DNA from: Streptomyces sp. ERV7
Lineage (GTDB): Bacteria > Actinomycetota > Actinomycetes > Streptomycetales > Streptomycetaceae
Direction: 5' to 3'
DNA length: 64,000 nucleotides
NCBI RefSeq assembly: GCF_001653515.1
Contig: NZ_LYOY01000001.1
Coordinates: forward strand, 310,001-374,000
The position numbers and the translations under genes are program-made. Within the stretch, counting starts at the first letter, position 1; the number at the start of each line of letters is the position of its first letter. The notes under the pieces are model-generated. The model ran no database searches. It saw only the letters and a program-made list of their open reading frames with translations, and had not been told where the DNA came from. This document shows positions 1 through 2,964 of this stretch, piece after piece.

Positions 1-47
1 ACCTGACGGCCGAGTACGTCCACGAGAACAGCGCGTACAGCTCATGA
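1..47 (+). CDS. argJ: argJ 3' end (partial)
   Basis: Only the last 14 codons and a TGA at 45-47 are in the window, reading LTAEYVHENSAYSS in frame 3. This ending matches the usual C-terminus of the bifunctional glutamate N-acetyltransferase/ornithine acetyltransferase ArgJ. The gene directly precedes argB and shares an ATGA overlap with it, as in the actinobacterial argCJBD order. ArgJ recycles the acetyl group between acetylornithine and glutamate. The call rests on the short tail plus gene order. Confidence 0.7.
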   Translation, partial: LTAEYVHENSAYSS

Positions 48-976
48 GCGGGGCGGGGGCGACGGAGACGAAGCGCGCGACCACTCGGCCCGAGGCAGCC
101 GAACCGCCGTGGCGCGAGGAGCTCCAGGGCCGTACGGTCGTCGTCAAGTTCGGCGGCAACGCCATGGTGGACCCTTCGCTGCACCGGACGTTCGCCCAGG
201 ACGTGGTGGAGCTGCGGCAGGCGGGGCTGCGGCCCGTCGTCGTACACGGTGGCGGCCCGCAGATCAGCTCGCTGCTCGACCGGCTCGGTCTGGAGACGCG
301 CTTCGAGGCCGGGCTGCGGGTGACCACGCCGGAGACGATGGACGTCGTACGCATGGTGCTTACCGGCCGGGTCCAGCGGGAGCTGGTGGGGGCCATCAAC
401 GCCCACGGGCCGTTCGCCGTGGGCCTGTCGGGCGAGGACGCGCACACGATGACCGCGGTGCGGCGCCCGGCCTGGGTGGACGGCCGACCGGTGGACATCG
501 GGCTGGTCGGTGACATCGTGGCCGTGGAAGCCGCCACCATCGGCGCGCTCCTGGAGCAGGGCCGCATCCCCGTGGTCTCCCCTGTCGCCCGGGGCGAGGA
601 CGGCCAGGTGTACAACATCAACGCCGATCTCGCGGCGTCGGCACTGGCCGTGGCCCTCGGGGCGGACCGGCTGGTCATGATGACCGACGTCGAGGGGCTG
701 TACGCGGACTGGCCGCACAGCACCGAGGTCATCGGCCGTCTGACGGCCGGTGAACTGGACGCCCTGCTGCCCGGTCTGGCGAGCGGCATGCTCCCCAAGA
801 TGGAGGGCTGTCTGCGGGCCGTACGAGCGGGCGTCCCCCGGGCGCAGGTCGTCGACGGCCGGGTGCCGCACGCGCTGCTGCGCGGGGTGTTCACCGAACA
901 CGGACCCGGCACCACGGTGGTACCCGATGAGAAATCCGGGTCCGAAAGGCTCGGCGGCATGGAGGACGACGCGTGA
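44..976 (+). CDS. argB: Acetylglutamate kinase ArgB
   Basis: A 310-aa amino-acid kinase that phosphorylates N-acetylglutamate, the second step to ornithine and arginine, in the cytosol. Visible motifs are VKFGGNAM near residue 35, the substrate loop VVHGGGPQI near 67, and YNINADLAA near 190, all typical of ArgB. The ATG at 44 overlaps the argJ stop (ATGA), which implies translational coupling. The gene ends with a GTGA overlap into argD. The length is normal for the family. It lies about 4 kb from a coelichelin NRPS locus that consumes ornithine; whether it is the only argB of the genome cannot be told from this window. Confidence 0.95.
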   Translation: MSGAGATETKRATTRPEAAEPPWREELQGRTVVVKFGGNAMVDPSLHRTFAQDVVELRQAGLRPVVVHGGGPQISSLLDRLGLETRFEAGLRVTTPETMDVVRMVLTGRVQRELVGAINAHGPFAVGLSGEDAHTMTAVRRPAWVDGRPVDIGLVGDIVAVEAATIGALLEQGRIPVVSPVARGEDGQVYNINADLAASALAVALGADRLVMMTDVEGLYADWPHSTEVIGRLTAGELDALLPGLASGMLPKMEGCLRAVRAGVPRAQVVDGRVPHALLRGVFTEHGPGTTVVPDEKSGSERLGGMEDDA

Positions 977-2181
977 CCCCCGACAGCACGACCCCCCTCA
1001 CCGACCGCTGGCGCGCGGTGATGATGGATACGTATGGCACTCCCCCACTGGCGCTGGTCAAGGGCGAGGGCAGCACGGTGTGGGACGAGGACGGCCGCGC
1101 ATACACGGACTTCACCGGCGGGATCGCCGTCAATGCCCTCGGGCACGCGCATCCGGCCCTGGTCACGGCCGTACGGGAGCAGGCCGGACGGCTCGGCCAC
1201 ACGTCGAACCTGTTCATCACGGAACCGTCCGTCACGCTCGCGGAGCGGCTGCTGGACCTGCTGGGCAGGCCGGGCAGGGTGTTCTTCGCGAACTCCGGCA
1301 CGGAGGCCATGGAGGCCGCTTTCAAGATCGCCCGCCGCACCGGGCGTCCGCACCTGGTCGCGTCCGAGGGCGGGTTCCACGGGCGCACCATGGGGGCACT
1401 GGCCCTCACGGGTCAGCCGGCCAAGCGCGCCCCGTTCCTGCCGCTGGCGGCGGAGGTGACGCACGTCCCGTACGGCGACGCGGCGGCGCTCCGCGCGGCC
1501 GTCACGGAACGGACCGCGGCCGTCGTCCTGGAACCGGTGCAGGGTGAGGCAGGGGTCGTTCCGGCGCCCGAGGGGTATCTGCGGGCCGCCCGTGAGATCA
1601 CCCGGGCGACGGGCAGCCTGCTCGTCCTGGACGAGGTGCAGACCGGGATCGGACGCACCGGCCACTGGTTCGCGCACCAGGCGGACGACGGCGTGGACCC
1701 GGACGTGATCGCTCTGGCCAAGGGGCTGGGCGGCGGCCTGCCGATCGGCGCCGTGGTCGCCTGCGGTGCCGCCGCCGACCTCCTGACCCCCGGTCAGCAC
1801 GGCTCCACCTTCGGCGGCAATCCGATCGCCTGCGCGGCCGGGCTCGCCGTCCTGGAGACCATCGAGAAGGAGGGCCTGCTGGCCCGCGCCGCGCGCGTGG
1901 GCGAGCGGCTGGGACGCGGTATCGAGGCAGTGCGGCACCCCCTGGTCCGCGAAGTGCGGGGCGCGGGGCTGCTGCTGGGCATCGTGCTCGCCGAGCCGGT
2001 GGCAGCGCGGGTGCAGCGAGCGGCGCAGGACGCCGGGTTCCTGGTGAACGCCGCGGGCCCGGGCGTCATCCGGCTGGCCCCTGCCCTCACGCTGCGGACG
2101 GAACAGGCCGATGCCCTGGTGGCGGCACTGTCCGCGATCCTCGACTCCGCGTACGACGACAGCGATCTCGCGCACGCATGA
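973..2181 (+). CDS. argD: Acetylornithine aminotransferase ArgD
   Basis: A 402-aa class III PLP-dependent aminotransferase that converts N-acetylglutamate semialdehyde to N-acetylornithine. The PLP lysine is in VIALAKGLGGGLPIG, the phosphate-binding segment is FANSGTEAMEAAFKIAR, and DEVQTGIGRTG is the usual aspartate region. The GTG at 973 overlaps the argB stop (GTGA). An ATG near 1021 would remove N-terminal sequence normally present, so GTG is preferred. No argR follows, unlike the standard Streptomyces argCJBDR cluster; a convergent GNAT gene follows instead. A strong hairpin lies directly downstream at 2188-2214. Confidence 0.95.
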   Translation: MTPDSTTPLTDRWRAVMMDTYGTPPLALVKGEGSTVWDEDGRAYTDFTGGIAVNALGHAHPALVTAVREQAGRLGHTSNLFITEPSVTLAERLLDLLGRPGRVFFANSGTEAMEAAFKIARRTGRPHLVASEGGFHGRTMGALALTGQPAKRAPFLPLAAEVTHVPYGDAAALRAAVTERTAAVVLEPVQGEAGVVPAPEGYLRAAREITRATGSLLVLDEVQTGIGRTGHWFAHQADDGVDPDVIALAKGLGGGLPIGAVVACGAAADLLTPGQHGSTFGGNPIACAAGLAVLETIEKEGLLARAARVGERLGRGIEAVRHPLVREVRGAGLLLGIVLAEPVAARVQRAAQDAGFLVNAAGPGVIRLAPALTLRTEQADALVAALSAILDSAYDDSDLAHA

Positions 2182-2187
2182 CGGCCC

Positions 2188-2214
2188 AGGCCGGGTGGCG
2201 GGGCCACCCGGCCT
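2188..2214 (+). terminator. Hairpin terminator after argD
   Basis: Perfect 12-bp inverted repeat (arms 2188-2199 AGGCCGGGTGGC and 2203-2214) with a 3-base loop, 7 bases after the argD stop. No U-tract, as is common in Streptomyces. Confidence 0.75.
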
Positions 2215-2268
2215 GGCACCGCGGGCACCGTCCGCCGTCGCGGTAGCGAAAGGCAGGGGCGAAATGCA

Positions 2269-2296
2269 GGGGCGGGCTCCTCACGGGGCCCGCCCC
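2269..2296 (-). terminator. Hairpin terminator after the GNAT gene
   Basis: Nine-base perfect arms GGGGCGGGC (2269-2277) and its complement (2288-2296) with a 10-base loop. It lies 29 bases beyond the stop of the minus-strand GNAT gene. Confidence 0.55.
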
Positions 2297-2324
2297 CTCG
2301 TCGTCCACGGTGTCCGGTTGACGT

Positions 2325-2849
2325 CTACACGGGCCGGGCCAGGATCCGGGCGTCGCGCGCGGGGTCCAAGGACCGTGCCCATGCGGTCGGCGCCTGGCTC
2401 GGGCTGACCGGCACGAACCCGTGGCGGAGGAAGAGGCGGCCGCTGCCGGTCGTCGCGGTGAACAGGGTCGTCAGCGAGCGGTTCCGCGCCCTGGCGAACG
2501 CCGTGTGCAGCAAGCGGGCCCCCATCCCGGTGCCCTGCCGCCGTCCGGCGACGCAGAAGTTGTACAGCACTCCGGCCGCGGGGTGCTCATGCAGCCCCAC
2601 GCAGCCTTCGAGGGTTCCGTCCGGGGCCTGCGCGACGAGGAAGTCGGATGCCCGCGAGAGATAGAGGGAGAGCGGACGCTGCCGCAGTGCTCCCGTTTCC
2701 ACGAACGGCCGGGAGAGCGCGGCGAGCGCGGCGCCCTCGTCCTGGCGAGCCGGCCTCACCGAGAACACGGGGGTGTTGTGCCCCCAGGCGGTCGGAGTGC
2801 GGTGCGGCAGGGTGACGAGCCGGGCAGGGGGCAGTGTGGCCGTGGTCAA
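2325..2849 (-). CDS. GNAT acetyltransferase, probable short-form N-acetylglutamate synthase
   Basis: A 174-aa GNAT protein. After about 30 residues the core reads FSVRPARQDEGAALAAL, then RQRPLSLYLSRASDFLVA, the acetyl-CoA loop region around RRQGTGMGARLL, and LFLRHGF. This layout resembles the short actinobacterial N-acetylglutamate synthase (ArgA function, Rv2747 type), which starts arginine synthesis. The start is a TTG at 2849 preceded by AAGGAAGGAACGTC, a strong Shine-Dalgarno; no ATG fits better. It is convergent to argD, completing an acetylglutamate-to-ornithine set, and has an iron box 97 bases upstream. The enzyme assignment is inference from motif spacing and context; a different GNAT substrate is possible. 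Confidence 0.65.
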   Translation of the reverse strand: MTTATLPPARLVTLPHRTPTAWGHNTPVFSVRPARQDEGAALAALSRPFVETGALRQRPLSLYLSRASDFLVAQAPDGTLEGCVGLHEHPAAGVLYNFCVAGRRQGTGMGARLLHTAFARARNRSLTTLFTATTGSGRLFLRHGFVPVSPSQAPTAWARSLDPARDARILARPV

Positions 2850-2945
2850 GACGTTCCTTCCTTGGTTCCGCCGTGCGCGGGTGCGGGGTCTCCCGGTCGG
2901 GGTCCGGGGCGTGATGGCCGCGTACCCCCGACGGAACCACGGAAG

Positions 2946-2964
2946 TAAGGTTAGCCTTACCTAG
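2946..2964 (-). promoter_or_regulatory. DmdR/IdeR-type iron box upstream of the GNAT gene
   Basis: TAAGGTTAGCCTTACCTAG matches 15 of 19 positions of the iron-box consensus TTAGGTTAGGCTAACCTAA. It lies 97 bases upstream of the TTG start, in a locally AT-richer promoter region, so the gene should be repressed when iron is plentiful. Confidence 0.75.

Follow-up and report, generated by a model that had tools for sequence, protein, structure and literature searches.

The accessory arg operon and its surroundings

We analysed a stretch of 64,000 nucleotides from Streptomyces sp. ERV7 (NZ_LYOY01000001.1, positions 310,001-374,000 of the forward strand; hereafter the window), which opens with the end of a second set of arginine biosynthesis genes, followed by a convergent gene for a GNAT-type acetyltransferase and by a siderophore cluster of the coelichelin type. 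The question pursued here is whether these arg and GNAT genes form an iron-controlled supply of ornithine that escapes arginine feedback, as proposed in the first-pass annotation. The features of the locus are collected in Table 1; G, L and C numbers are our own handles for genomes, loci or sequence stretches, and contigs.

The annotated order, with the end of argJ, argB and argD followed by a convergent GNAT gene, was confirmed by the reading frames and profile matches. These arg genes belong to a complete second operon, argC-argJ-argB-argD, which is interrupted by the window edge and continues upstream of the window; in it each gene overlaps the next by 4 bp. Accessory ArgC is 72% identical to the canonical ArgC of the same genome, and the accessory ArgB and ArgD pass their family models (TIGR00761, 233.7 bits versus a cut-off of 151.3; NF002874, 620.7 bits versus 457). 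No argR was found between accessory argD and the convergent GNAT gene, which bears out the annotated difference from the standard arginine cluster. A search of the genome for a second cluster recovered a complete, ordinary argCJBDR cluster elsewhere on the contig (C1:967-974 kb), with argG in its neighbourhood, so that the window set is accessory; the alternative that these are the sole arg genes of the genome is ruled out by the presence of two argB genes.

Downstream of the GNAT gene lies a coelichelin-type cluster with genes for an esterase, ABC exporters, a trimodular nonribosomal peptide synthetase (NRPS), uptake proteins, an L-ornithine 5-monooxygenase and a formyltransferase. The first-pass annotation counts three ornithine-derived residues for the NRPS locus; a review (PMC9854754) mentions two threonines in the coelichelin tetrapeptide. 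The review describes the coelichelin cluster as having a trimodular NRPS and genes for an ornithine monooxygenase and a formyltransferase, all of which are present at this locus.

Table 1. Features of the accessory arg locus and the adjoining siderophore cluster (window positions unless marked C1)
Feature	Position	Strand	Remarks
accessory argC	C1:307853-308899		348 aa; upstream of window
accessory argJ, whole gene	C1:308896-310047		383 aa; mostly upstream of window
accessory argJ, 3' end	1-47	+	ornithine acetyltransferase; 74% identical to canonical ArgJ
accessory argB	44-976	+	N-acetylglutamate kinase, 310 aa; 62% identical to canonical ArgB
accessory argD	973-2181	+	acetylornithine transaminase, 402 aa; 69% identical to canonical ArgD
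NAGS-like GNAT gene, convergent	2325-2849	-	174 aa, TTG start
iron box 15/19	2946-2964	.	upstream of GNAT gene
amidohydrolase gene	3343-4926	-	recurrent neighbour of the module in relatives
iron box 17/19	5291-5309	.	upstream of cchJ-like esterase
cchJ-like siderophore esterase	5310-6464	+	enterochelin esterase-like; earliest possible start, with an ATG further downstream
cchI-like ABC exporter	6527-8278	-	served as marker of coelichelin-type loci
cchH-like trimodular NRPS	8217-19160	-	3 adenylation, 3 carrier, 4 condensation/epimerisation-type domains
cchB-like L-ornithine 5-monooxygenase	25348-26703	-	PF13434; predicted consumer of ornithine
cchA-like formyltransferase	26967-27914	+	PF00551, PF02911
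NAGS, N-acetylglutamate synthase.

Iron boxes and the argC promoter

Iron boxes were scored against a 19-base consensus of the DmdR1-type site. The annotated 15/19 box of the GNAT gene was recovered, 96 bp from the start of the gene, and an 18/19 match was found where a box upstream of argC had been suggested, at C1:307676-307694, 158 bp before the accessory gene. The window contains ten further matches of at least 13, some of them overlapping, whereas the mean per 64 kb over 60 simulations that preserved its dinucleotide transitions was 0.18 matches of 13 and 0.017 of 14, with none above. No box of at least 13 was detected in 18 kb around the canonical arg cluster, and the best score in the windows upstream of canonical argC genes (n = 20) was 11/19.

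The boxes recur at related loci. The survey comprised 56 GNAT loci (57 were found, and one distant Acidovorax match was excluded), 51 of which carry an accessory-type argB (argB2). In 44/51 of these a box of at least 14 was present within the 960 bp at and upstream of the arg unit, versus 0/168 simulated stretches, one of which reached 13. Before the GNAT gene, such a box was found within 300 bp in 35 of 55 testable loci (0/165 simulated stretches) and within 600 bp in 45 of 55 (at least 13 in 1/165 controls). The accessory arg set and the GNAT gene are thus predicted to be under the control of an iron repressor.

The canonical argC promoters share one common block (20/20; leave-one-out 47-68 bits). 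This block is missing from all 70 accessory upstream regions, which include a few duplicates: none scored above -17.5, versus a simulated level of -17.7. The score applies to this block, a mixture of ArgR boxes and core promoter, and not to weak single ARG boxes.

The accessory kinase and the GNAT protein

Arginine-sensitive N-acetylglutamate kinases (NAGK) and N-acetylglutamate synthases (NAGS) share the motif E-(L/I)-(F/M)-(T/S)-X-X-G-X-G-T. According to the consulted sections of PMC4490483, the Glu of this motif takes part in positioning arginine, and an N-terminal helix is a feature of arginine-sensitive NAGK. The window ArgB has GVFTEHGPGT at this motif, versus EIFTDEGIGT in the canonical ArgB of the same genome, so that the contact Glu is replaced by Gly. 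Loss of the Glu is general among the accessory copies: in an alignment of 94 non-redundant rows (70 accessory, 22 canonical and two further second copies), the Glu is absent from 68/70 accessory sequences (G in 54, A in 6, S in 4, R in 2, C in 1, D in 1; E in 2) and present in 22/22 canonical sequences and in the two further second copies. Among the 120 best database clusters, our own protein included, 119 lack the Glu. In the phylogenetic tree, a single branch (support 100/99) separates the Glu-less rows from all others, and four Glu-keeping second copies fall between them and the canonical rows, which fits one loss.

The kinase itself appears to be maintained. The positions K33, G67, G68, R90, N190, N192, D194 and K251 (own canonical numbering), which we selected as presumed catalytic or substrate-site residues, are unchanged in 70/70 accessory copies, and D214 in 69/70. 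In the Glu-less copies, retention of canonical-invariant residues is 81% for the kinase core (30-272), 47% for the arginine loop and 18% for the first 29 residues. The Trp of the N-terminal helix occurs in 24/70 accessory copies versus 24/24 of the others, and in a monomer model of the window ArgB, built from an accessory-only alignment, residues 1-20 have a predicted local distance difference test score (pLDDT) below 50 and form no helix. With a simple counting method, the ratio of nonsynonymous to synonymous substitution rates (dN/dS) has a median of 0.33 among accessory pairs versus 0.22 among canonical pairs; the value of 0.33 indicates that accessory ArgB is under purifying selection. Accessory ArgB is therefore likely to be insensitive to arginine, and the annotated escape from arginine feedback gains support at the sequence level from the loss of the contact Glu and of the N-terminal helix sequence, together with the absence of the canonical argC promoter block. 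One copy looks broken: argB2 of Streptomyces cupreus (L108 10467-11322) matches in pieces only.

The GNAT protein had been annotated as resembling the short actinobacterial NAGS. Its NAGS-like character was upheld, but it is nearer to the NAT domain of the long ArgA-type enzymes. Against the model of the short NAGS (NF005921, PRK07922, Rv2747 type) it scores 32.1 bits, far below the cut-off of 180, which rules out an ordinary short actinobacterial NAGS. The ArgA models NF003641 (52.9 bits, cut-off 344) and TIGR01890 (51.8 bits, cut-off 202.85), which include a kinase-like domain, were also matched below cut-off and over the NAT domain only; a resemblance to ArsN2 (48.9 bits) was observed as well. 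The four top PDB profile matches are NAGS, as are the five top structural entries (three proteins) obtained with the predicted fold. Of the glutamate-binding and catalytic residues of ngNAGS named in the consulted parts of PMC4490483, the glutamate-binding Arg316 and Arg425 align with R58 and R165 of the GNAT protein, which are invariant in 54/54 aligned sequences; the 20-residue offset of the PDB chain used for this numbering was deduced from matching residues. Profile matches and predicted fold both place the convergent GNAT closest to NAGS.

A PRK07922-type short NAGS scores over the cut-off in 144/150 Streptomyces genomes and in 52/61 wider relatives, and no such gene over the cut-off was found in the genome of strain ERV7. 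At the corresponding site (G000:C29:1674754-1674780; L200 about 3255-3281) the flanks of the missing gene are 26 bp apart, versus about 4.5 kb in G074. The join lies on one contig and shortens coaX, so that a misassembly is possible as well as a real deletion; for this reason the absence of the short NAGS was not taken to mean that the strain has no NAGS other than the GNAT.

Distribution and proposed function of the module

Among 150 Streptomyces genomes, argB2-type copies, taken as those of at least 69% identity, were found in 29 and the GNAT gene in 25, both together in 24, the GNAT gene only in 1 and argB2 only in 5. The coelichelin-type exporter marker is present in 34 of the 150; argB2 occurs in 19/34 marked versus 10/116 unmarked genomes (Fisher 2e-8, relatedness uncontrolled), and it lies within 10 kb of the marker in 17 of these 19, the two genes being on different contigs in the other two. 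When the 57 GNAT loci were assigned to cluster types by identity thresholds of our own setting, within the flanks, 34 were of the coelichelin type (argB2 in 33), 18 were of a second type (argB2 in 16) and 5 showed neither. Two members of the second type were extended and have an NRPS with four adenylation domains and a cchB-like gene (84 and 83%), with a cchA-like gene (90%) in the one member where the stretch reached it; because of these genes the second type looks like a hydroxamate peptide cluster. In both siderophore contexts the GNAT gene is accompanied by the amidohydrolase gene (about 76-89% identical).

The arg part of the related loci is mostly reduced. argB stands alone in 35/51 loci and the full argCJBD set is present in 9/51, the loci having been found via the GNAT and not via argB. 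Several accessory ArgB proteins start with remnants of other operon genes, clearly so in L070, L080 and L083 (ArgJ) and in L057 (ArgC), and more weakly in L095, L106, L090 and L111; no start remnants at the same level were found in 176 comparisons with canonical-type ArgB rows. Remnants of this kind would be expected after in-frame deletions within a longer operon.

The duplicated argCJBD without argR and the NAGS-like GNAT beside the coelichelin-type cluster would, with good probability, feed ornithine to the siderophore under iron control, through a kinase that ignores arginine; at the level of sequence, this supports the interpretation offered in the first-pass annotation. Under iron shortage, a DmdR-type repressor would be released from the boxes upstream of argC (18/19) and of the GNAT gene (15/19). 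The GNAT would then add N-acetylglutamate, which ArgB, its arginine-contact Glu being lost, would phosphorylate even when arginine is plentiful. The later steps to ornithine, with recycling of the acetyl group, would fall to ArgC, ArgD and ArgJ; hydroxylation by the CchB-like monooxygenase would then make the ornithine ready for the peptide synthetase. In the 35/51 loci where only the GNAT gene and argB were found, the core arg genes would supply the remaining steps. In cyclic ornithine synthesis, NAGS and NAGK are both believed to be controlled by arginine (consulted portion of PMC10464499), and the GNAT-argB pair may act as a bypass of these two entry steps. A wider proposal, which we hold with less assurance but still favour, is that GNAT and kinase form a portable, iron-gated and arginine-blind ornithine valve of hydroxamate siderophore loci in Streptomyces. 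A duplicated argCJBD operon would have come under iron boxes and been reduced to the two arginine-controlled steps, the in-frame deletions leaving start remnants of argC or argJ, and kinases recruited to ornithine-consuming clusters would have lost the Glu repeatedly.

Several observations weigh against these proposals. No box was found in the stretch examined for 7/51 arg units and 10/55 GNAT genes (20/55 within 300 bp). The module is dispensable, as 15/34 genomes with the coelichelin marker are without argB2, and 5/56 GNAT loci have no argB2 in the stretch. A Glu-less argB2 (G072, L143) and a GNAT gene without argB2 (G039, L148) lie away from siderophore markers. Four second copies of ArgB (G051, G060, G094 and L113) retain the Glu, and 38 canonical-invariant positions are kept in less than 15% of accessory copies, 21 of them in the kinase core. 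In the GNAT protein, Glu353 (the catalytic base) and Ser427 of ngNAGS align with Val94 and Ala167, so that their equivalents are absent. Finally, the related short NAGS Rv2747 has been crystallised with L-arginine (5yo2), and the absence of a kinase-like domain is thus no proof that the GNAT ignores arginine.

The absence of both equivalents, the scores below the curated NAGS cut-offs and the resemblance to ArsN2 would all suit a GNAT whose substrate is a siderophore intermediate or an amino acid other than glutamate, leaving ArgB as the sole ornithine part of the module. Against this stand the invariant R58 and R165, the NAGS identity of the nearest PDB entries and the presence of argB2 in 24/25 GNAT genomes; we regard such a role as possible, though doubtful. 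A different objection concerns the kinase: iron may regulate the supply while ArgB is still inhibited by arginine, or its inhibition is irrelevant, so that only extra enzyme matters and the Glu loss is drift. Drift would fit the many other canonical-invariant positions that changed and the somewhat higher dN/dS of the accessory copies, and full argCJBD sets, as in this genome, would fit a dosage effect; but retention is markedly higher in the kinase core than in the arginine loop and the N-terminus, argB was kept beside the GNAT gene in the reduced loci (which were found via the GNAT), and further ornithine-using clusters, outside the clade, contain Glu-less ArgB as well. We consider this explanation unlikely. 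It is very improbable that an old arg duplication merely came to lie by a siderophore cluster and acquired its iron boxes from it: the copies away from siderophore markers (L143, L148) would agree with such a history, but the module is found repeatedly next to hydroxamate NRPS clusters of two kinds (34/57 and 18/57 loci), carries iron boxes of its own and has intact reading frames that are under purifying selection.

An iron-controlled, arginine-insensitive supply of ornithine, our preferred reading, can be set against known systems. The canonical Streptomyces argCJBDR cluster (SCO1580-1576 in S. coelicolor; PMC3293853, as far as consulted) has the same order argC-J-B-D and the same enzymes as the accessory operon, but it has argR, an ArgR-operated promoter, the arginine motif in ArgB and no iron box. 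The GNAT shares with the Rv2747-type short NAGS (PRK07922) and the ArgA NAT domain the fold, the coenzyme A motif QxxGxG and the two glutamate-binding arginines, and differs from them by its scores below the family cut-offs and by the unconserved base and Ser427. Complete accessory ornithine sets (argC, argD, argB, argJ) inside NRPS clusters, like that of the window, are described for lunaemycin (lun11-14) and stenothricin (StenJKLM) in the accessible sections of PMC9866976. The lun set differs in serving piperazate, in having no iron box of at least 14 in 16.8 kb, and in that Lun13 retains the arginine Glu and the N-terminal helix. The qinichelin cluster of Streptomyces sp. MBT76 (Gubbens et al. 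2017, as cited in the same sections of PMC9866976) is, like the window locus, a siderophore cluster with its own glutamate-to-ornithine genes.

In a survey of plasmids, eight of 47 records with an argB match were examined. In six of the eight, argB lies in clusters with genes for an ornithine oxygenase and a flavin mononucleotide-binding protein (piperazate type, Lun13 included), and no iron box of at least 14 was found in these six stretches. In the tree, their ArgB proteins lie on the same side as the canonical sequences (fork support 88/91); the Glu is kept in Lun13 and NBC_00212 and lost in four, where Q, Q, Q or P replaces it (L204, L205, L207 and L210). A plasmid of Streptomyces sp. NBC_01558 (NZ_CP109366, L206 7941-8816) resembles the module in having a lone Glu-less argB, a hydroxamate NRPS cluster and iron boxes, but its argB overlaps the formyltransferase gene, a third arrangement; no GNAT is annotated in the stretch, and the protein lies outside the accessory group on a long branch, its placement being unsure. 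Kinases recruited to ornithine-using clusters have thus probably lost the Glu on more than one occasion; with these long branches the number of losses is unsure. Accessory arg sets are known from other gene clusters, but in the open-access literature searched we found no report of an iron-boxed argB-GNAT pair, of a siderophore locus with an arginine-blind ArgB, or of the reduced two-gene form proposed here to be iron-gated and arginine-blind.

If the proposal holds, siderophore precursor supply would be decoupled from amino-acid feedback by keeping the control-point enzymes, removing the allosteric site and rewiring the promoter to iron. The accessory ArgB proteins are candidates for naturally arginine-insensitive acetylglutamate kinases, useful for ornithine or arginine production, and a Glu-less ArgB could serve as a sequence flag for ornithine-using gene clusters. 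A testable general question is whether enzymes of primary metabolism recruited to biosynthetic clusters lose their feedback sites convergently.

Two genes upstream of the operon were also observed. A gene for a DUF2470 protein with its own 16/19 iron box lies directly upstream of accessory argC (L003 10764-11504; C1:306764-307504), and its homologues occur near the module in 10/57 GNAT loci. Upstream of the iron locus, a gene for a 1042-aa STAND-type protein (NB-ARC, weak TPR matches; L003 6972-10100, C1:302972-306100) is possibly a defence gene.

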